Below are positions 13,913 through 24,539 of a stretch of DNA of 64,000 bases, in pieces; position 1 is the first letter of the stretch; every line of letters begins with the position of its first letter. Origin of the DNA: Syntrophobacteraceae bacterium (GTDB lineage Bacteria > Desulfobacterota > Syntrophobacteria > Syntrophobacterales > Syntrophobacteraceae); assembly GCA_018053185.1 (NCBI GenBank), contig JAGPLX010000007.1:1-64000 (forward strand), given 5' to 3'. The notes below the pieces were generated by a model. It ran no database searches and was not told the origin of the DNA. It saw nothing but the letters and a program-made list of their open reading frames with translations. The position numbers and the translations under genes were made by a program.

Positions 13913-14173
13913 CTACTTCTTCATCTTCTTCATGAAAATGGATTCGGCTTTGTCGGCAGCCGCTTCGGCTCGACGGGCAGCTGCTTCAGCTCTTGCTGCG
14001 GCCGCTTCGGCAGCCTTGGCGCTGGCGCTGCAGGATGCTTCGATCGCCTGTGCCTTATCCAGGGCGGCCTGGCAGAGCTCCTGGCATTTCTTCGCGTCAT
14101 CCGTGCAAGCGCAGCCGGAAACCATGGTGAATGCCAAAGCCAAAACCAACAAAACTCCCAATGTTCTCTTCAT
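13913..14173 (-). CDS. Alanine-zipper lipoprotein, Braun (Lpp)-like
   Basis: The 86-residue precursor has a signal peptide with a perfect VSGC lipobox; the lipidated cysteine is C21. The mature part is helical with repeated AEAAAARAEAAARRAEAAADKAE, a heptad alanine zipper that should form a trimeric coiled coil, and it ends MKKMKK. A C-terminal lysine is what L,D-transpeptidases use to join Lpp to peptidoglycan. AAGGAGG lies eight bases before the ATG and a strong terminator follows. The gene lies downstream of an L,D-transpeptidase gene on the same strand. The coiled-coil assignment is seen directly; peptidoglycan attachment is inference. Confidence 0.85.
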   Translation of the reverse strand: MKRTLGVLLVLALAFTMVSGCACTDDAKKCQELCQAALDKAQAIEASCSASAKAAEAAAARAEAAARRAEAAADKAESIFMKKMKK

Positions 14174-14439
14174 TTCTCTTTCCTCCTTATGATGCTGATT
14201 GATGCTATGACGAAACCTACCTTCTCCGCTAAAACAATCCGGACGTCTCCCTCTCACCTCCTCTCCTGCAGTATGTATTGAAGAGAATAGTTCCTCGCCG
14301 GTTGATCAAACTGCCGCATACTAGCGTGAAAAAGCGGTAAAATGCTACTCTACATGTTGCCCAAAAGCAAGAGGAATTTCATGGAAAATCCATCTACTCA
14401 ATGAGCAGCCTTACTTCGTGTGAGTATTTATTATCACTC

Positions 14440-15402
14440 CTAATGACCAAGCTCAACCATTTTTACAGAAATATCTTCCGAGGGGAGTCGGCTGACGTTC
14501 GTGGGGACGCCGTTCTGAAGGCGAACGGCCATCAGAAAACGCTTGCGGTCCACCTGGTCGGCTTGAGGATATTCGTCCAGCTTTCTCGCGGCATAATCCA
14601 CATAGTCGGGAATCTTGCGATAAACGTCCGGATGGGCCTCCACGTAAATCTGGCCCTCCCTCCGGCCAAGCTTCAGCGGTTCATAAACGATCTCGAGCTT
14701 GGTCCCTATGGAAACCTGCGGGAACAAGATTTTGATGTGTTCCGGGTAACAGCGGATGCACCCGTGGGAAACCAACCTGCCGACACCCCAGGGCATGGCG
14801 GTTCCATGCACTCCGTAGGGTCCCGCACTGAACTTCATCATGTAGTCCCCCAGGGGATTCTCGGGTCCAGGGGGCATAACCGCCATTCCGTATTTCTCCT
14901 GCAGGGAAAGAGGCACATACCAAGAGGGATTGGTACGTTTTTCCGTGATATGAAAGGTACCCAGCGGAGTTTCCCAGCCTTCATCCCCGATCCCGATGGG
15001 ATAGGTTTGTACCGTCGAGGAATTCCGGTCGAAGAAGTACAATCGCAGTTCCGGAACATTGATGACCAGCTGTTGTTGACTGGTAGGGGGAAGCACCCAG
15101 AATGTGGGGATGACGATCTTTTTCCCACTGGGTGGAATCCACTTGTCCGTTTGAGGGTACAATAGATCGATCTCATTGAACCCCAATCCAAAGCGCCGGG
15201 CGATGTCGAGCAGTGTATCCCTGGGAGGGACGCGGTACCATGTTGGAGAACCGATCACCGTGAGATCGGGGATATGGTAGGGGTACTGTTTTATGGTGGC
15301 GGTGAACTGCTCCTCGGAATCTTCTTCGGCGGGTACTTTCAGAGGGATCTGGGACAAGAAGAGGGTTGCCAAAATCAACAAAAAGAAGCGTCGTTTCCTC
15401 AT
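14440..15402 (-). CDS. L,D-transpeptidase (YkuD domain) with LysM domain
   Basis: The 320-residue exported enzyme has an N-terminal signal segment, a LysM peptidoglycan-binding domain (about 54-100, WYRVPPRDTLLDIARRFG) and a YkuD catalytic domain with VHGTAMPWGVGRLVSHGCIRC; the active-site residues are H199, H213 and C215. The family makes 3-3 cross-links or attaches lipoproteins to meso-diaminopimelate. Its architecture resembles the Lpp-attaching ErfK/YbiS/YcfS group. The next gene on the strand encodes the alanine-zipper lipoprotein that ends in lysine, a credible substrate. Confidence 0.92.
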   Translation of the reverse strand: MRKRRFFLLILATLFLSQIPLKVPAEEDSEEQFTATIKQYPYHIPDLTVIGSPTWYRVPPRDTLLDIARRFGLGFNEIDLLYPQTDKWIPPSGKKIVIPTFWVLPPTSQQQLVINVPELRLYFFDRNSSTVQTYPIGIGDEGWETPLGTFHITEKRTNPSWYVPLSLQEKYGMAVMPPGPENPLGDYMMKFSAGPYGVHGTAMPWGVGRLVSHGCIRCYPEHIKILFPQVSIGTKLEIVYEPLKLGRREGQIYVEAHPDVYRKIPDYVDYAARKLDEYPQADQVDRKRFLMAVRLQNGVPTNVSRLPSEDISVKMVELGH

Positions 15403-15782
15403 CGATCCTTATATCCTGTGGGTGGACCACGGAAATCGGCATCAAAAAAGGCCGCACGTACAATAGGGATTCCCCCGGGCCGAATCAAGGGTTATTTGCC
15501 GTTCGTCGGCATTCAATGGATCGTCAACCTACCATCCCATCTCACGGGAAGTCATTCCCGACTTTTCGACCGTCGGCTTGAACTTTAACGAAGAATCTTC
15601 TATAAAACAAGAAGTGATGCCGGATATTCAGGATTCATCATGAACGAACGGTCCCGTGGAGGCCGAGAAAACGGCTCTTTCCCCCTGGGCCTCCTCCCGT
15701 GTCATGGAAGCGCTGGATGGACAGGCGTGGGAGGTAAAGACCCTCGACCTTCAGGACATTAGACCCCTTGGGGAGGAAAACC
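15403..15782. other. Divergent intergenic region between the L,D-transpeptidase and aldolase genes
   Basis: The region holds the plus-strand promoter listed separately and an approximately 170-base leader before the aldolase gene. A 40-codon ORF starting ATG at 15640 is present in the leader, but it has no Shine-Dalgarno site and unremarkable composition. No other feature is supported. Confidence 0.4.
15578..15606 (+). promoter_or_regulatory. Sigma-70 promoter of the class II aldolase gene
   Basis: TTGAAC at 15578-15583 and TATAAA at 15601-15606 are separated by exactly 17 bases. Transcription would start near 15613 and leave a leader of about 170 bases. Confidence 0.6.
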
Positions 15783-16916
15783 ATGCCGAGAGGAAAAAAG
15801 GACAACCGTCCCGAAAACGTGAAGCGCAGATATCCCGACTCTCTCGTCCCTTTGGTAAACGGGAGACTTCTCATCGAGGCCGCAAGAAGGAACAATGCCA
15901 TGATCATGGCTTGCAACATCCGTTGCAAACTTCCCGTGGAGGGCATCGCTCTTGCCTCGATGGCCACCGGCGCACCCGTCATGTACGAAATTGCCAAGTC
16001 GGAACTTTCCTACACGGAGTTCACCCCGGCATCCTTTGTCGATTTCATTTTGTCGGAGAACGAACGGCTTGGGAATACCGACGTCCCTTTCGCCATCCAT
16101 GGGGACCACATTACGGTCAAGAAGGAGGAAGAGATCCAGAGTGTGGCCGACCTCATTGAAGCGGAGCTGGAGGCGGGTTTTACCTCCTTTGCCATCGATG
16201 CTTCCCACATGGAAAACCAGAAGAACCTGGCCGCGACTTCAGAGCTGGCTCGTCCCATCGTGGCCGCAGGTTTGAATCTGGAGGTGGAGCTCGGGGAAAT
16301 CGGGGCCAAGAGCGGAAGCGCAGAGGGTTTTACGCAGCCCGAAGAGGCCCAATGGTTCATTGGAGAGCTGGTCAAGAGAGGGATTCATCCCGATCTCTTG
16401 GCCATCAACAACGGGTCCATCCATGGAACCTACTTCGGTACCGCTCAGGAGGGGATTCAGCTCGAGTTGACCCGAAGAATCTGGGAGAGCATCCAACCCT
16501 GGTCGGTCGACATTGCTCAGCACGGCATCACGGGCACGTCCCTGGACAAGATCTCGTCCTTCATCGAGTACGGAATTCGCAAGGGAAATGTAGGGACTCT
16601 GTGGCAGAATATTTCCCTGGGACTGGCCATGAACCAGAACGGAAACGCCATCACCACCGAAAACCGCGACTACATCAAGCGACCCTACCGGGGAATTCCC
16701 GACGAATTATGGCGGGAGATGTGCGTTTGGGCCCTGGAGACCCGAAATACCGGAGGAAACATCAAGAACGTGAACAAACCTTTCTCCGCCAAGATGAACT
16801 GCATTCCCCTGCCGTACAAGAAGCGAATCACGGATCATGCCTATGAGGAAGCAGTGCGGCTCTTCGAGGCAACACACTCCCTTGGGCTTGCGGAAAGCGT
16901 CTGGGAGCTCATGTAA
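15783..16916 (+). CDS. Class II (zinc-dependent) aldolase, fructose-bisphosphate aldolase family
   Basis: The 377-residue protein carries the class II aldolase metal and phosphate motifs: IHGDH (about 105-109), FAIDASHMENQ, VELGEIGAKSG, INNGSIHGTY and DIAQHGITGT. Typical enzymes cleave fructose-1,6-bisphosphate or related ketose phosphates. The C-terminal 80 residues (GNAITTENRDYIKRPYRG onward) differ from E. coli FbaA, so the substrate is not certain, but glycolysis/gluconeogenesis is most likely. GGAGG six bases upstream fixes the start at the ATG at 15783. Confidence 0.88.
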   Translation: MPRGKKDNRPENVKRRYPDSLVPLVNGRLLIEAARRNNAMIMACNIRCKLPVEGIALASMATGAPVMYEIAKSELSYTEFTPASFVDFILSENERLGNTDVPFAIHGDHITVKKEEEIQSVADLIEAELEAGFTSFAIDASHMENQKNLAATSELARPIVAAGLNLEVELGEIGAKSGSAEGFTQPEEAQWFIGELVKRGIHPDLLAINNGSIHGTYFGTAQEGIQLELTRRIWESIQPWSVDIAQHGITGTSLDKISSFIEYGIRKGNVGTLWQNISLGLAMNQNGNAITTENRDYIKRPYRGIPDELWREMCVWALETRNTGGNIKNVNKPFSAKMNCIPLPYKKRITDHAYEEAVRLFEATHSLGLAESVWELM

Positions 16917-17133
16917 CTCCTGAATTGAGACCTCTCGGGCTTGGGAGGATCGAGTGTTGTGCACCTTGCCCGAGGTGAGGGTGGACAGGGGTTGCAGGGT
17001 GGCTGAAGAAGATGCAGACCCGCAAGCGACCCCTTCCATTCGATCGAGAGCTCTTCCCCCCTCCCCACCAGTGGATTTTCCTGGACCTGCGAGGTGCACC
17101 CATCCGCGGAAAAGGTCCAAAACCATTCAGGTT

Positions 17134-19449
17134 TCATATTCTTTTCCAACGGGTACCTGCGGGGGTATCCACCACTTGAAGGCCGCGTCGGAGAAGCTCC
17201 TCGCGCAGTCGGTCCGCCTGGGCCCACTCCTTGGCGTTGCGTGCCTCGTCACGAGCCCTCAGCAATTCTTCTTCCTCGGAGCTGAGGTCCTCGAAATCCA
17301 GGTCGAAAATCCCCAGAATAGCGTTTATCCGTTGAAAAATTTCGAGTATCTGCAGGCGTTGGGGTTCACTGAATTCCCCACTGTCCAGGATGGGGTTTGC
17401 CGTCCGGGTGAACCGAAACAGGGCCGCCAGGGCCTTGGGAACATTGAGATCATCGGCCATGGCGTCGAAAAAGTTTTGCTCGAGGGTATAGAGAAGCTCT
17501 CCCAGGGCTTTATGTTCCTGGTGACCTCCGCGTACATAGCGAACACGGCGGACGAATTCCTTGAGGCGGGCATAGCCGGAAAGTGTGTTCCGGATGTTTG
17601 CCTGGGTGAAATGGATGGGTTTCCGATAATGGGTGCACAGCAGCCAATAGCGTAGTTGGTTCGGGGAAATGCCGGCGTTCGTCAGGGTACGTACCGGGAT
17701 ATTCGCATCGGGTTCGTCGGAAGTCCTTTCGTCCTTGCCGGACCATATCCGTTCGCAGACCATCCACACCCCAGCAAAAGGCTTCCCTGTCAGGGCTTCG
17801 CCGATTTCACGAACGTTTTCCAGATGGGGAAATAGAAAATCCACACTGCTCACCACAATGTCTACAGGGACTCCCAGGTCGTGCAGGGCAATGGATGCCG
17901 CCGAAATGTGCCAGGTGGGGACCACGTTTCCCCAGGAAGTCTTGAGGTAGATGCCGTGCTTCAGTTCCGTGAGGGTGGCCCTTTTCAGGAGGGTAAAATC
18001 CCTGGGATTGAGTTTCTCGTAAGTGTTCAGGTCTACGGTGGCACCCACACGGATCTTCCTTGGGTCGACCCTGGACAGGGCCCCGTAGTCCCGGCTTCTG
18101 GACAGGTTGAAATAGACCGAACGAAGCTTCTCGTAGGCCAGGTCCCGGTCGATGAGCGCTTGCGTATGGTCGGCAATGGTGTCCAGGTGGTCGGTGATGC
18201 GAGGGTATCGACAGGCCCTTTGAACCCCCAGCCGATCCAGATCCGCCAGTACCTCTTCCGCTTGTTGCCTGCAGTAGGCGGCAAGGTCCATTTTGGCGGA
18301 GATCGCTCCCTGGATGGTCCGGCTCTCCATATCCGGAATCAGGACCATCTGATCCACGGAAAAACCCTTGGCCTTGAGGAATCTCGCAAGGAGGTCCGCC
18401 ACGAGAAAGCGGCGTGATTCCTGTAAAGTCAAGGGCTGGTCCAGGGGAGGGCTGGTGACGAAAAGACGCACCTTGCCTTCCTGGACCGGCTTGAAGTCGA
18501 CCTTTTCCCTGCGCAGCAGGTCGAAAAACTTGAAATCCGGCTCGAGCATGGTGGTAAACAGGTTGGTGCTGAGGTACCGGTCGCCCCCATCGGGCAGGAT
18601 CGCCACCAGGATTCCCTCCTCCATTTCACCGGCCACCTGAACGGCAGCGGCCATGGCCGCCCCTGAGCTCATTCCGGCGAAAATTCCTTCTTCCCGCGCT
18701 AGACGGCGAGCCATTTCAAAAGCATCCTCATCCCGCACAGGGAGGATCTCGTCCATGGCATGACGATCAAAAATGGCGGGAACGTAAGATTCCTTCATGT
18801 TCTTGAGCCCCTGGACCTTGTGTCCGGGGTACGGCTCCACCCCAACCACCCGGATGGAGGGGTTGCGATCCTTCATCGCTTTGAGGATCCCCATGGCGGT
18901 TCCGGTGGTCCCCAGGGTGACCACCACGGTATTGACCTTTCCCTCGGTCTGTTCATAGATCTCGGGTCCCGTCCCCAGATAGTGAGCCAGGGGATTGGCG
19001 GGATTGCTGAATTGATCCGGCATGAAATAGCGATCCGGGTCTTTCCGAACCAGGTTGTAGACCTCCTCGATGGCACCGTCGGTGCCCAGAGAGCCCGGTG
19101 TGAGGAGAAGTTCCGCCCCCAGGGCCTTGAGAATCTTCTGTCGCTCGAGACTCGCCGTCTCCGGCATGACAAGCATGATCCTGTAACCCTTGACGGCCGC
19201 CACCATGGCCAGACCGATTCCCGTGTTGCCGCTGGTGGCCTCGATGATGATCTTGTCGTGCGTCAGGATTCCTTCGCGTTCCGCGGATTCGATCATGCAC
19301 AGGGCGGTCCGATCCTTGATGGAACCGCCGGGGTTTTTGGCTTCCCATTTCACGTAGAGGCGAACTCTGGGATTGGGGTTCATCCGATTGATGAGAATGA
19401 GCGGCGTGTTTCCGATGGATTCCAGGACGTTGGAAAAAACGTTCTTCAT
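17134..19449 (-). CDS. Cysteine synthase fused to a degenerate cysteinyl-tRNA synthetase
   Basis: The 771-residue fusion has two parts. Residues 1-300 are a complete PLP cysteine synthase: Schiff-base lysine K45 in GGSIKDRTA, TSGNTG at 72-77, phosphate loop GTTGTAMG at 180-187 and LPDGGDRYLSTNLF at the end. Residues about 325-771 align end to end with class Ia cysteinyl-tRNA synthetase, including FPH.EN and the C-terminal DTPAGTRWKR. The catalytic marks are lost: the zinc cysteine of YVCGP is threonine (T332), HIGH is TLQE (341-344), HIEC is HISA (A517), the ligand glutamate of FPHHENE is valine (V546), and KMSKS is absent near 572-577. The synthetase half therefore probably cannot charge tRNA; it may bind tRNA or cysteine and regulate the synthase. 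No stop or frameshift interrupts the junction. Confidence 0.9.
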   Translation of the reverse strand: MKNVFSNVLESIGNTPLILINRMNPNPRVRLYVKWEAKNPGGSIKDRTALCMIESAEREGILTHDKIIIEATSGNTGIGLAMVAAVKGYRIMLVMPETASLERQKILKALGAELLLTPGSLGTDGAIEEVYNLVRKDPDRYFMPDQFSNPANPLAHYLGTGPEIYEQTEGKVNTVVVTLGTTGTAMGILKAMKDRNPSIRVVGVEPYPGHKVQGLKNMKESYVPAIFDRHAMDEILPVRDEDAFEMARRLAREEGIFAGMSSGAAMAAAVQVAGEMEEGILVAILPDGGDRYLSTNLFTTMLEPDFKFFDLLRREKVDFKPVQEGKVRLFVTSPPLDQPLTLQESRRFLVADLLARFLKAKGFSVDQMVLIPDMESRTIQGAISAKMDLAAYCRQQAEEVLADLDRLGVQRACRYPRITDHLDTIADHTQALIDRDLAYEKLRSVYFNLSRSRDYGALSRVDPRKIRVGATVDLNTYEKLNPRDFTLLKRATLTELKHGIYLKTSWGNVVPTWHISAASIALHDLGVPVDIVVSSVDFLFPHLENVREIGEALTGKPFAGVWMVCERIWSGKDERTSDEPDANIPVRTLTNAGISPNQLRYWLLCTHYRKPIHFTQANIRNTLSGYARLKEFVRRVRYVRGGHQEHKALGELLYTLEQNFFDAMADDLNVPKALAALFRFTRTANPILDSGEFSEPQRLQILEIFQRINAILGIFDLDFEDLSSEEEELLRARDEARNAKEWAQADRLREELLRRGLQVVDTPAGTRWKRI

Positions 19450-19705
19450 GGTTGGTTGCGGGTCCTCTTTTCGCGAAAAGGGTTCGACCGGGGATGGACT
19501 CGCCGAACTCGCGTGTGGGATAATCCAAGACCGCGGGAAGCTTCTAAAACCTTCCCCGATGTCATTCTTGGGAAAGCCGGCGTTCGAAGCTCGATAGGGA
19601 CCGTTGTGTCCCCGGCGTCATCAAAGGTGGCCGGTTCCCACGGGACTTACCGGGTTCTCATAGGGTTCTCCATACTCACTTCCGTTTGCGTTTTATGCAA
19701 CCTGG

Positions 19706-19735
19706 TATATAGGCAGCTGGAGGATTCTTTGTCAA
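19706..19735 (-). promoter_or_regulatory. Probable sigma-70 promoter for the cysteine synthase fusion gene
   Basis: On the minus strand a perfect TTGACA (plus 19735-19730) is 18 bases from TATATA (19711-19706). Its -35 box overlaps the -35 box of a plus-strand promoter. The implied leader is about 250 bases; no T-box specifier or antiterminator sequence is seen in it, and no other gene lies in 19450-19700. Confidence 0.5.
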
Positions 19736-19758
19736 AGTGTTTCCATGTGTTATATAAA
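19729..19758 (+). promoter_or_regulatory. Probable sigma-70 promoter for the AddB-like gene
   Basis: TTGTCA at 19729-19734 is followed by TATATA (16-base spacer, 19751-19756) overlapping TATAAA (18-base spacer, 19753-19758). The coding start is about 50 bases downstream of the predicted transcription start. Confidence 0.5.
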
Positions 19759-19814
19759 ACTCCTCTATCCTGTGGAAGCCGATTTCCCGGCATTTTCACC
19801 GAGTAGGTGGCAGA

Positions 19815-22481
19815 ATGGACAACCTGGAACTGCAAAACCGCCTGGTAGCATTCATGGAATCCGGCTTCGAGGTTCTCACCGAAAGCGAGAGATTTACTCA
19901 TCAGCTTCAATGCCGCTTTCGCATGGAACAGATGAACAGGTCCTCTCATGGATGGCGGTCTCCGCCCGTGGCTCCGATGAACTACTGGATGGAAAAGCTG
20001 TGGAAGGACCTGTGGCCGGAAGAATGGCCGGCTCCCCCCTTTGTTCGATGGCAATTGCTTTCCCGCTGCGTCACGGCGATCCCTCCTCCCGTGCCTCTTA
20101 CGGCGGGCCCGCTGCTGGTGAAGGACCTGGACGAGACTTTTGACCATTGTCTGCGCTACGGGATGGATCCCGGCCTCGGAGATTCCTCTGTGTCGCTTGT
20201 TCGGTGGAGGCAAGAGGTCTGGCTCTCGTACCGCCGGGAACTGGAGATTCGGCGGCTGTTCTATCCAGCGCTTCTTCCCCAAAGGCTTGTCTCGGTGCTG
20301 AAACGCGAACCGGCGCGAATTCCCTCCAACCTGGTCATGGTGGGCTTTGAATTCGCGGGGTTCTGGGAAAGGAAGTTGTTGCAGGTGTTGTGTTCTTCTC
20401 CCGGCTCTCGACACTATCCGCTGCCGGTTCCGGACAGGACGGACAGGGCCGTCGTTTATGCGGATCCCCATCAAGAGGTCCTGGGCATTCTCGAAGACCT
20501 GGTCGAGGCGGCGGCCCGGTATCCCCTCCACACCCTGGGGGTGGTCGTCCTGGATGCTCCCCTCTACACTCCGCTACTGGCCCGAGAGATCGAGAACCTC
20601 CTCGGCCTTCCCCTCGATGGCGAGCAGGCGGCCTACAACCTGTTGCCGGAACCAAGACTTACGGATCAGCCTCTCTATGAGGCCGCCTTTCTCCCCCTGA
20701 CCTTCGCTCATGACGGGGAGTCCAGGCACGCTTTCCTCGGCTTTCTGCGATCTCCCTACTATGAAACCACGGCCTGTCGGAGCCGGGCACTGATCCAGTG
20801 GGACCGGTCCTGGAGGGAAAAAGGTGTGGAAGGCGGCCTGGAGGCGCTCATCGACTCCGTACCTGCCCCCCTGAAAGGCCTGCTTCCCGAAGAAGGACGG
20901 GAGATTCGCAGGTGGTTTCACCCTCTCATGGCAAAACACGAACGTCCGGGTTCCTCCTGGGCGGGAGATTTGAAAAACCTGTGGAAGGAATTCGGGTTTC
21001 CCGTGCGGGCCCATGAACTGGACCACGTGGCATGGGACCGGCTGCAGCGGCTCCTGGATCAGTTCGAGCGTGCCTTCGGCCAAATCTCCATGACTAGTCG
21101 AGAATTCAAGGAATGGATTCAGGGAGCTGCCGAGAAGATCCACGTTCAGAGGCGGGGTGCCGAGGATGCCGGAATCCAGATCCTTGGAGGGTTGGAAGTT
21201 CGTGGCATGGTTTTTCGTCGACTTTATGTCCCGGCCCTCTTGAGCGGTGTTTTGCCTCAACCTGTTCGAGCCCTTCCTTTCCTGACCTCTGAGGAGAGAA
21301 AAAGGGTTCAGGGCGGGACGATCGAGAGTCAGCTTCAATTCGCGAGGCACCTTTTTGCCCAGATCCATGCGGCCGCTCCCCGGGTGATTTTGTCCCGTCC
21401 CATGGTGACTCTCGCCGGAGACATCGGACTACCATCTCCCTTCTGGCCCGACGGCAAGGAGGAACGATCCCCGACCGTCATCCCCTGGCGCCATCCCCTG
21501 ACGGGAATCCAGAGGGCCCGGTGGGTGAAGGAGGGCATTGCGGGCGTGGAAGCCCATCAAAAATGGGACACCGGGATTCCCGCCGATCTCTACCATGCGG
21601 GTTCCCTGTCCCTTCCCGAAGAAATGCCTGTAGGCGCGGTGGAGATCCTGGTTTCCTGTGTGGCACGGTTTTTCTTGGAGGAAATTCTGAGGATTGTTCC
21701 CCTGTCGGAAATCGAAAGGGGTTTGGACCCCCGGCAGCGAGGAGGAAGGATCCATGCCGTGGTCGCCTCTCTGGGCAGGGAGGTCCGCCGCCGTTGGAAG
21801 GAAGAGGAGTGGAACATCGAGCGGTTGAAACGCGCCCTCGAGGAGGCTGTGGATCACGAGCTCGAGACCGTGGCCCACCTCCCCACCTGGCAGATCGAGA
21901 GAAGAAGGCTTCTGGGCAAGAACGATCGCGCGCCGGGCCTCCTTGTGGAATGGCTGCGACAAGAAATCGAATACCTGTCACAGGGATGGCAATGGGCTGC
22001 CCTCGAGGCCTCGTTCTCGGGTTTGCGGCTGGAGGACTGTCCGGTGACCATTCGGGGTCGCGTGGATCGGATCGACCAACACCGGGACGGAGGAGTCGTC
22101 TGCTGGGATTACAAGACGGGTCGGATTCCTGCCAAAAGGGAGCTGTGGGAAGAGCTGTCCTTTCCCCAGGTTCCGCTCTACCTGATGGCCATACGAAAGG
22201 GCCTGATCCGGGAAATTCCTCCGACCCCCCCATCCCTCAACGGTGGTTACATCGAGCTTCGATCTGTTCGCCACCTGCGTCGGAAGCTTTTCGCGGAAAG
22301 TTCCGACCATCTCGATGCCCTGCTCCTGGATCACGAAAAGAAGATTTCCACCCTCGTCAGGCAGGTTCTGGAAGGACATATCACGGGGCGGTGGTTCGAA
22401 GTTTCCTGCGAGGTTTCCTGTCCATACGAGTGTCTGTGTGGATACCGTCTGTGGATGGGCAAGCCAGCGAGCGCCCCATGA
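19815..22481 (+). CDS. AddB/RecB-like PD-(D/E)XK nuclease with Fe-S cluster cysteines
   Basis: The 888-residue protein has a C-terminal nuclease domain: RGRVDRID at about 746-753 and WDYKTG at about 764-769 are the PD-(D/E)XK acid and lysine motifs. The cysteine in SCVARFF (about 615) and the cluster CEVSCPYECLCGY (about 865-877) match the four cysteines that staple AddB nuclease domains with an Fe-S cluster. The N-terminal two thirds resemble an inactivated helicase scaffold and show no Walker A motif. AddB works in double-strand break repair with the AddA helicase-nuclease, but no addA is in the window. It is shorter than typical AddB. Confidence 0.8.
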   Translation: MDNLELQNRLVAFMESGFEVLTESERFTHQLQCRFRMEQMNRSSHGWRSPPVAPMNYWMEKLWKDLWPEEWPAPPFVRWQLLSRCVTAIPPPVPLTAGPLLVKDLDETFDHCLRYGMDPGLGDSSVSLVRWRQEVWLSYRRELEIRRLFYPALLPQRLVSVLKREPARIPSNLVMVGFEFAGFWERKLLQVLCSSPGSRHYPLPVPDRTDRAVVYADPHQEVLGILEDLVEAAARYPLHTLGVVVLDAPLYTPLLAREIENLLGLPLDGEQAAYNLLPEPRLTDQPLYEAAFLPLTFAHDGESRHAFLGFLRSPYYETTACRSRALIQWDRSWREKGVEGGLEALIDSVPAPLKGLLPEEGREIRRWFHPLMAKHERPGSSWAGDLKNLWKEFGFPVRAHELDHVAWDRLQRLLDQFERAFGQISMTSREFKEWIQGAAEKIHVQRRGAEDAGIQILGGLEVRGMVFRRLYVPALLSGVLPQPVRALPFLTSEERKRVQGGTIESQLQFARHLFAQIHAAAPRVILSRPMVTLAGDIGLPSPFWPDGKEERSPTVIPWRHPLTGIQRARWVKEGIAGVEAHQKWDTGIPADLYHAGSLSLPEEMPVGAVEILVSCVARFFLEEILRIVPLSEIERGLDPRQRGGRIHAVVASLGREVRRRWKEEEWNIERLKRALEEAVDHELETVAHLPTWQIERRRLLGKNDRAPGLLVEWLRQEIEYLSQGWQWAALEASFSGLRLEDCPVTIRGRVDRIDQHRDGGVVCWDYKTGRIPAKRELWEELSFPQVPLYLMAIRKGLIREIPPTPPSLNGGYIELRSVRHLRRKLFAESSDHLDALLLDHEKKISTLVRQVLEGHITGRWFEVSCEVSCPYECLCGYRLWMGKPASAP

Positions 22482-22679
22482 AGGGTCCTTATCCGGGATC
22501 TCTTCCCAGGGTCGTCCTGTTGGAGGCACGGGGATCGAAAAGGGCATGAAAGAGAGGGATCGAACCGCGGGGAGTTCCGTTGACCTGAGTGGCCCATACA
22601 GGTATAAGATCTCGAAGCCGTTTAGAAAACTCGATGCGGCAGGTTCCGAACTCAACCTTCCCGGCATGAGGAGTCTTTC

Positions 22680-23627
22680 ATGAAAATCGGCGTGATGGGT
22701 TCAGGGGGCATGGGGGGATATTTCGGAGGCCTTTTGGCACGGACCGGCGTAGACATCCACTTTGTAACCAGGGGGAAACATCGTCAAGTCATCCTCGAGG
22801 AAGGACTTAAGGTGGTGTCCGGTCAGGGAAGCTTCAGGGTCATGGTTCACGCCACATCGGAACCCGACGAGATCGGACCGGTCGACCTTTTGCTCTTTTG
22901 TGTGAAGTCCTACGACACCATGGACGCAGCCCGCATGATCGCACCCATGGTGGTGGAAGACACGGTACTGATGAGCCTGCAGAACGGCATCGACAATATC
23001 GACAAGCTCATTGGATTTTATGGTCAGGAACGGGTCGTCGGTGCGACGGCCTTTGTGGAAGCCGTCAAGGTTTCACCGGGGGTCGTGGCGCATCGGGGCA
23101 GAGTTGGCCGCATCGTCTTTGGCGAGATGACGGGGCAAAGAAGCGAACGAGTTGAGAAAATCCTCGACCTGTTTCGTCTTGCCGGCATCGACGCAGAGGT
23201 GTCCACCAACATCCAGGAGGTCCTGTGGTCCAAGTTCCTGTTCATCTGCGGAGTTCACGGCGTGAGCACTCTCTCGAGGTCCTCCCTGGGGTTGGTATTG
23301 GCGCTGCCTGAAACCCGAGAGCTCATGACCGGCGTCATGCAAGAAGTCAAGGAGCTGGCTCGCAGGAAAGGCATTCCCCTGCCGGCGTCCGTGGTCGAGG
23401 ATGCCTTGGCCTTGGCGGATTCTTACGACAAGGGATTCAAATGCTCGATGCTTCAAGATCTCCAGTGGCGAAGACCCATGGAGATCGAAGCAATCAACGG
23501 CATGGTGGTCAAGATGGGGAGGGATCTTGGGGTGCCGACCCCTTTCAATCTTGCCGTTTACAGCTGTCTCAAACTCTGCAATCAGCAGATTCGGGATCCC
23601 TTGTGGGCGGAACAGGTCAAACTCTAG
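22680..23627 (+). CDS. panE: 2-dehydropantoate 2-reductase (ketopantoate reductase)
   Basis: The 315-residue enzyme reduces ketopantoate to pantoate with NADPH for coenzyme A synthesis. The N-terminus has the dinucleotide loop GSGGMGGYFGG; FCVKSYDT and SLQNGIDN are family motifs; the C-terminal domain has the substrate and catalytic region around WSKFLFICGVHG with the conserved lysine and SMLQDLQWRRPMEIEAINGMV. GGAG lies six bases before the ATG. coaBC is elsewhere in the window but not linked. Confidence 0.92.
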   Translation: MKIGVMGSGGMGGYFGGLLARTGVDIHFVTRGKHRQVILEEGLKVVSGQGSFRVMVHATSEPDEIGPVDLLLFCVKSYDTMDAARMIAPMVVEDTVLMSLQNGIDNIDKLIGFYGQERVVGATAFVEAVKVSPGVVAHRGRVGRIVFGEMTGQRSERVEKILDLFRLAGIDAEVSTNIQEVLWSKFLFICGVHGVSTLSRSSLGLVLALPETRELMTGVMQEVKELARRKGIPLPASVVEDALALADSYDKGFKCSMLQDLQWRRPMEIEAINGMVVKMGRDLGVPTPFNLAVYSCLKLCNQQIRDPLWAEQVKL

Positions 23628-23990
23628 GGGAAGAGGGAAGAGTCGATGAACTGGCGTTCCGTTCCCCTCAACCCTGGAGACTCCCAGCGAAGGCAGAGTC
23701 AACCGAAAGATTTTCCACCCGAGTCGTACTGGAAGATTCGATGGCTGAAACCAAGGGGACAAGGATGCACTCTTCTCCGGGAAGCGTCGGCTACGGGGTC
23801 CGAGAACAACAGCCCGCCAATCCGGAGGGGAGGGGTGCTTCGCCCAGGAATCCGGAAGGGGCGTAGGTTGGGACGCACCGTAGACCGGTGAGGAATCCGT
23901 CGCCGGGTGCTGAAAACCACGGTCCGCTCAGTCCTTCATCTGGGCGGGTAAGCTCATTGTCCGGAAAGAATCGGTTTTTCAGGGGGAGGG
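23628..23990. other. Intergenic region with no supported feature
   Basis: Several short ORFs occur on both strands, but none has a ribosome binding site or recognisable sequence. I see no hairpin with a uridine tract and no convincing promoter. Confidence 0.4.
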
Positions 23991-24539
23991 ATGGAATATC
24001 GTTTTTGTCCATTTTGCGGGGGACCCTTTGGCCGCGGCGGGGATGATTCCCCGAAGAGGCTTCACTGCGGGCGATGCGGCCAAACCCTGTATCGGAATCC
24101 CACTGTCGGAGTTGCGGTCATTCTTCTCGAGAGAAACGAGTTGCTGCTTGTTCGTCGTCGAGGTTCCCACGAGGACATGTGGTGTATTCCCTGCGGCCAT
24201 GTGGAATGGGATGAAGAGGTTCGAGCAGCGGCCCGCAGGGAATTCCAGGAGGAAACCGGCTTGAAGGTGAGCATCGGTCCGGTGTTTGCCGTTTACTCGA
24301 ATTTTCACGACCGGCATCGCCAGACAGTGGGTATCTGGTTCCTGGGGCGGAGAGTCGGCGGGGAACTGAAAGCCGGGTCGGACGCAAAAGAAGCACGCTT
24401 CTTCCCCGTGGATGGATTGCCTGCTCAAATGGCATTCCCCACCGATCGACTGGTCTGTGAAAAACTGGAACGATGTCTCGAGAGTGGTGACCTACTCCTG
24501 TTGCAGGACACCTGCTTCATCGGGGAATTTTCCATCTAG
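23991..24539 (+). CDS. Nudix hydrolase with N-terminal zinc ribbon
   Basis: The 182-residue protein starts with a four-cysteine zinc ribbon (CPFCGG...CGRCG) and has a Nudix box [20 protein letters not shown] followed by TGL, matching GX5EX7REUXEEXGU. The ribbon-plus-Nudix layout is like NudC/ADP-ribose-type hydrolases, but the protein is shorter than NudC and lacks its SQPWPFP segment, so the substrate is open. The last 48 bases overlap the 3' end of the convergent TraB-like gene. Confidence 0.85.

Follow-up and report, generated by a model that had tools for sequence, protein, structure and literature searches.

Why would a bacterium join a cysteine synthase to a cysteinyl-tRNA synthetase (CysRS) that appears to have lost its active site? 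The question is raised by one gene in the window, by which we mean the whole stretch of 64,000 nucleotides that was analyzed. The gene is a single uninterrupted open reading frame of 771 amino acids that starts with ATG and lies on the minus strand at 17134..19449. The first-pass annotation described it as a cysteine synthase fused in frame to a full-length CysRS-like domain, and both the open frame and the Pfam and NCBIfam domains confirm that description. Its features are listed here with the evidence for each in parentheses.

17134..19449, minus strand: cysteine synthase-pseudo-CysRS fusion gene, 771 aa (ORF, translation, Pfam/NCBIfam, AF2)
18550..19449, minus strand: cysteine synthase half (PLP fold type II), residues 1-300 (TIGR01136, PDB matches, loop alignment)
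17137..18531, minus strand: pseudo-CysRS half, residues 307-771 (Pfam, full-length CysRS-chain match, Foldseek)
18418..18429, minus strand: eroded HIGH motif, reading TLQE, residues 341-344 (alignment with E. coli CysRS and with the genome's own canonical CysRS)
17137..17289, minus strand: anticodon-contact region, CysS_C (Pfam match, conservation in 105 fusions)

The N-terminal part of the protein matches the Pfam model PALP over residues 10-287 (E 4e-71), and the C-terminal part matches the CysRS models in order, with tRNA-synt_1e at 319-622 (6e-44), DALR_2 at 660-715, and CysS_C at 721-768. The CysRS-like half also aligns over its full length with CysRS chains of known structure. An AlphaFold2 model of the fusion has a mean pLDDT of 86.7 and a pTM of 0.67, a value that does not fix the relative placing of the halves, and Foldseek matches this model both to CysRS bound to tRNA (1u0b_B, TM 0.81 by target length) and to CysM (2bhs, TM 0.96 by target length). 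The gene is transcribed alone, away from its two neighbors, a class II aldolase-like gene at 15768-16916 (+) and a PDDEXK nuclease (AddB-like) gene at 19815-22481 (+), and we found no gene neighbor or operon partner conserved across 69 fusion loci. Promoter and terminator scans at the locus gave results at chance level, and no tRNA gene was found in the window. A leader RNA or T-box upstream of the fusion was rejected, since Rfam returned nothing at E <= 1 over positions 14000-24000.

Of 395 genomes sampled from the phylum, at least 149, from bacteria of the sulfate-reducer type, carry the full-length in-frame fusion, a result that answers the question, posed in the first-pass annotation, of whether other Desulfobacterota carry it. 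The frame is open in nearly all of them, with an internal TGA in one row. In a scan of genome contigs that covered the best 80 loci, such that other phyla may hold the fusion too, the named carriers belong to Syntrophobacterales, Desulfobacterales, Desulfobulbales and their relatives, and include Desulfacinum infernum, Desulfosarcina cetonica, Desulfogranum marinum and Desulfonema magnum. An assembly artefact is excluded because the same fusion occurs across many genomes, among them the complete genome of D. magnum. One fusion (L061) lies on a contig labeled Methanococcoides; since it groups with the Desulfobacterales fusions, this contig is probably misplaced in that MAG. The fusions group as a single clade (SH-aLRT 99) when their C-terminal halves are placed in a tree alongside canonical CysRS, and they do so as well in a tree of the N-terminal halves, except that one long-branched standalone synthase (L145) is nested inside. 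The fusions that branch closest to canonical CysRS, L025 and L179, are, along with L028, among those with the best-kept motifs. A plausible history is that CysRS was duplicated and then fused once near the base of the lineage.

Purifying selection acts on both halves of the fusion: the median dN/dS (omega), taken over pairs that are not all independent, is 0.138 in the CysRS half and lower still, at 0.095, in the synthase half. A pseudogene or a gene under relaxed selection is ruled out by the omega of the CysRS half and by the open frames across the phylum; the first-pass annotation had allowed for both relaxed selection and a fusion confined to this genome, and neither is what we observe.

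With respect to catalysis, the CysRS half has lost the residues that a synthetase would be expected to need. HIGH reads TLQE (341-344), KMSKS is gone, and three zinc ligands are replaced (Cys28 by T332, Cys209 by A517, and Glu238 by V546), all as the first-pass annotation had stated and as alignment with the E. coli and the genome's own canonical CysRS bears out. In addition, the ATP-site GGG225-227 (E. coli numbering) has become VSS, while the fourth zinc ligand, His234, is kept as H542. The half scores 234.6 bits against the NCBIfam cysS model, under the cut-off of 340. With HIGH, GGG, KMSKS and most zinc ligands lost, neither ATP binding nor zinc-based cysteine recognition is to be expected. 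Across 105 fusions, H37 is retained in 27%, H40 in 9%, K269 in 4% and K73 in 35%, and E238, C28 and C209 in 50-64%. Among 58 fusions, HxG[HN] is kept in four, a KMSKS-like motif in five and the zinc set in 25, with all three together in a single member, versus HIGH and KMSKS in 29/29 canonical CysRS and all four zinc ligands in 27/29. The erosion is graded rather than uniform: a few basal members (L025, L028 and L179) are near-intact, with HLGN or HLGV, KMSRS and all four zinc ligands, and most are not. The idea that the residues might be lost in every fusion therefore does not hold; L028, for example, has HLGN, KMSRS and every zinc ligand.

Two other activities known for CysRS relatives were considered. 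An MshC-type cysteine ligase is excluded, as the loss of catalytic motifs with retention of the anticodon domain is the opposite of the MshC pattern; the MshC model scores 84.6 bits against a cut-off of 485. Cysteine persulfide synthesis by CysRS lysines, which we take to be those of KMSKS and the K73 region, is unlikely given how seldom K269 and K73 are retained.

A functional CysRS is encoded elsewhere, as the first-pass annotation had predicted: the same assembly contains a complete canonical CysRS, HIGH and KMSKS included, on another contig (C71:53653-55113), and each of the 30 fusion genomes that we checked has a separate CysRS, although in one case only part of that gene was seen. Four genomes of the window's family (G276, G352, G255 and G390; loci L162-L165) carry a third CysRS-like gene of about 415-430 aa, which is MshC-like or CysRS*-like, with HVGN or HLGN and KMSKS intact and no anticodon domain; the sequence flanking it, about 4 kb in each direction, has no tRNA gene.

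The anticodon-binding domain presents a different picture. R733, R737, W742, D746, R749 and D761 of the fusion correspond to E. coli R423, R427, W432, D436, R439 and D451, so that all six anticodon contacts (RRWDRD) are intact, with R439 and D451 presumably being further contacts in the E. coli CysRS-tRNA structure. The five charged residues are kept in 104-105 of 105 fusions, and W432 in 98. The six together have a mean conservation of 0.987, compared with 0.50 for the other 32 positions of the anticodon domain (permutation p ~1e-5). When the 124 columns that are invariant in canonical CysRS are scored in the same 105 fusions, the anticodon domain has a mean retention of 0.96, the KMSKS loop 0.19, the catalytic and zinc residues 0.38, and all remaining columns 0.60. 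Among the contact residues, R427, D436 and W432 touch G34 in the E. coli complex, and R423 is part of the hydration network of that base (PMC12684709). Because catalysis has eroded while the anticodon-contact residues have been kept, the CysRS half is probably a tRNA(Cys)-binding module, although the conserved contacts could in principle serve another RNA instead. The first-pass annotation had suggested selection for the binding of tRNA(Cys) or of cysteine. The pattern of loss and retention favors the tRNA; a general role of the CysRS half in cysteine binding is not supported, since this lineage has lost all but one of the four zinc ligands and E238, C28 and C209 are at 50-64% in the family.

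We then consider the synthase half, whose CysM-like character, like the absence of CysE described below, escaped the first-pass annotation, leaving its interpretation as a whole partly supported. This half passes the NCBIfam cysKM model (TIGR01136; 370 bits, cut-off 344), contains the PLP lysine motif NPGGSIKDR with catalytic Lys45, and matches Mtb CysK1 (275 bits) and E. coli CysM (268 bits) in the PDB. A loop alignment reveals a short CysM-type loop, QGLKNMKESYVP (QGLKN, containing LKN), in which K216 is a basic residue; the CysK loop PGPHxIQGIGAGF is absent from the half. The cysM equivalog cut-off is not reached.

To place the enzyme in its pathway, we counted genes in 113 fusion genomes, 55 with the fusion as the sole cysKM match and 58 with another. 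CysE is found in one of the 55, where the single exception (G052) is a weak partial match, and in 56 of the 58, where it often adjoins the second cysK. This split is highly significant by Fisher's test when uncorrected for relatedness (p ~1e-28), and it recurs in the same direction within families f1, f3, f10, f52, f80, f34 and f32. Lacking both the CysK loop and, in 54 of the 55 genomes, CysE, the fusion does not resemble CysK, the CysE-binding OAS sulfhydrylase. SerA is above the cut-off in 54 of the 55 fusion-only genomes and SerC is present in the window's own genome; therefore, O-phosphoserine can be made. Given a CysM-like synthase half and genomes that rely on the fusion without CysE, the synthase half is most likely an O-phosphoserine-type sulfhydrylase, as judged from gene content and resemblance. 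Against this, C. jejuni CysM rejects OPS (PMC9855970). Mtb CysM is an O-phosphoserine enzyme that works in a thiocarboxylate route (cited in PMC9855970). A SepRS-dependent route is excluded, as SepRS was found in none of the 55 fusion-only genomes.

CysE loss does not need the pseudo-CysRS: in a sample of 30 fusion-free genomes, five have no CysE either and yet keep a standalone synthase. Nor does the fusion serve only to replace CysE control, because it is also kept in genomes that have CysE together with a second CysK. Several neighborhoods bear separate mention. In one CysE-less genome of the phylum (L185:3503-5895), a related CysM-like gene is followed by JAB and ThiF genes, an arrangement that resembles the thiocarboxylate cysteine route of Mtb CysM. 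In a CysE-less, fusion-free genome (L182:756-5437), a CysM-like gene that stands alone and clusters with the fusion N-terminal halves is flanked by two tRNA modification genes, one mnmA-like and one mtaB-like, with a nifS-like gene upstream. In a fusion genome (L187:4512-8638), the separate cysK and cysE adjoin iscS/iscU-like genes. Finally, two genomes without the fusion have cysKM matches in open frames of 871-877 codons (G056:C2:267368-268246 and G018:C38:95709-96596), which may be other cysteine synthase fusions or merely long open frames.

In the textbook pathway, cysteine inhibits CysE and so controls its own synthesis. This usual control point is missing where the fusion is the sole cysteine synthase, since CysE is absent there. 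The reading that we favor, tentatively and at somewhat less than even chances, is that the fusion is a CysM-type, likely O-phosphoserine synthase in which a tRNA(Cys)-binding pseudo-CysRS controls cysteine output by charging state. The sequences support the fusion itself, the erosion of the ATP site, the conservation of the anticodon contacts, purifying selection, and the absence of CysE when the fusion is alone; from these we infer that the substrate is O-phosphoserine, that tRNA(Cys) is bound, and that the purpose is regulation. On this reading, the module would have lost amino-acid activation, mostly completely, while its surface for reading the anticodon of tRNA(Cys) would have remained. 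Without CysE, O-phosphoserine would be drawn from serine synthesis, making the sulfhydrylase itself the committed step in cells that are likely rich in sulfide. Binding of tRNA(Cys), probably in a manner that tells uncharged from charged, would set the activity of the attached synthase, so that a tRNA(Cys)-reading domain would report charging state and adjust cysteine flux in place of CysE feedback. The stronger form, in which uncharged tRNA(Cys) directly switches the synthase via the attached pseudo-synthetase and replaces CysE feedback in a large part of the phylum, is a possibility that we hold slightly more tentatively still.

Alternatively, the pseudo-CysRS half might act as a docking module that brings the synthase to tRNA(Cys) or to the true CysRS, such that fresh cysteine is passed to charging and free cysteine is kept low in a sulfide-rich cell, with activity ungated. 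Conservation of the tRNA contacts fits this delivery equally well, and a separate CysRS to receive the cysteine is present in every genome checked, but free cysteine diffuses fast and the 69 loci yielded no conserved neighbor or partner; we regard delivery as unlikely. Somewhat less likely again is that the half only stabilizes or oligomerizes the synthase and that tRNA binding has been lost. Such a scaffold would accommodate an ATP site eroded in nearly all members, zinc ligands lost in about half, and a C-terminal half that evolves somewhat faster than the synthase half; it leaves unexplained, however, why polar anticodon contacts are invariant while their neighbors vary, and sister CysM-like enzymes exist without a CysRS-like domain. 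It is improbable that other residues still let the CysRS half activate cysteine or a different carboxylate, or charge a tRNA: the near-intact basal members would suit such a ligase, but the query has lost HIGH, GGG and KMSKS alike, and the full motif set survives in just one of the 58 fusions. Least probable is synthesis on the tRNA itself, in which O-activated serine on tRNA(Cys) would become Cys-tRNA(Cys) in a bacterial counterpart of SepRS/SepCysS, for although a covalent link here joins a PLP beta-replacement enzyme to a binding body of the tRNA(Cys) type, in cells without CysE, the 55 fusion-only genomes lack SepRS, canonical CysRS is present, and the CysK fold is generally known to act on free amino acids.

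If the charging-state reading is true, one enzyme by itself would let tRNA charging set the supply of an amino acid, and a widespread lineage of bacteria would make cysteine with neither the CysE step of the textbook pathway nor the feedback on it. The catalytic motifs are lost by degrees while the anticodon contacts stay, which also offers a natural series from a synthetase to a non-catalytic RNA-binding module. We found no published description of the fusion in the literature searched, a search with most subscription journals outside its scope, and a 2022 review of aminoacyl-tRNA synthetase paralogues gives only CysRS* and MshC for CysRS (PMC9437257).

The fusion shares with canonical CysRS (TIGR00435; E. 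coli 1LI5/1U0B) the full-length fold with its anticodon-binding domain, the anticodon contacts, Trp205 and His234, but it lacks HIGH, GGG, KMSKS and most zinc ligands, sits behind a cysteine synthase, and coexists with a separate CysRS. With CysM-type synthases (E. coli CysM and O-phosphoserine sulfhydrylases such as Mtb CysM) it shares the PLP lysine motif, the short loop with a basic residue replacing the CysK loop, and use without CysE, whereas it adds a pseudo-CysRS domain of 465 residues and its own use of O-phosphoserine is predicted. MshC and CysRS* are likewise duplicated CysRS proteins with a new job, but they keep catalysis; CysRS* from Desulfobacterales, for instance, has retained catalysis and lacks the anticodon domain (PMC9437257), so that the fusion, with catalysis lost and the anticodon domain kept, is their mirror image. 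The SepRS/SepCysE/SepCysS transsulfursome also links cysteine formation physically to tRNA(Cys), although through different protein families and with a SepRS that the fusion-only genomes lack. As a means of sensing, a tRNA-gated synthase would be the enzyme-level counterpart of GCN2 and the T-box. The closest logic is that of HisZ, which is a non-adenylating paralogue of HisRS and controls HisG, the enzyme that opens the histidine pathway (PMC9437257): in both cases a synthetase paralogue that does not adenylate is joined to an enzyme that makes the corresponding amino acid, and by this analogy of domain logic the pseudo-CysRS may exert a HisZ-like allosteric control. HisZ, however, is a separate subunit that senses histidine, whereas the pseudo-CysRS is fused in cis, is of class I, and has kept its tRNA-reading domain.
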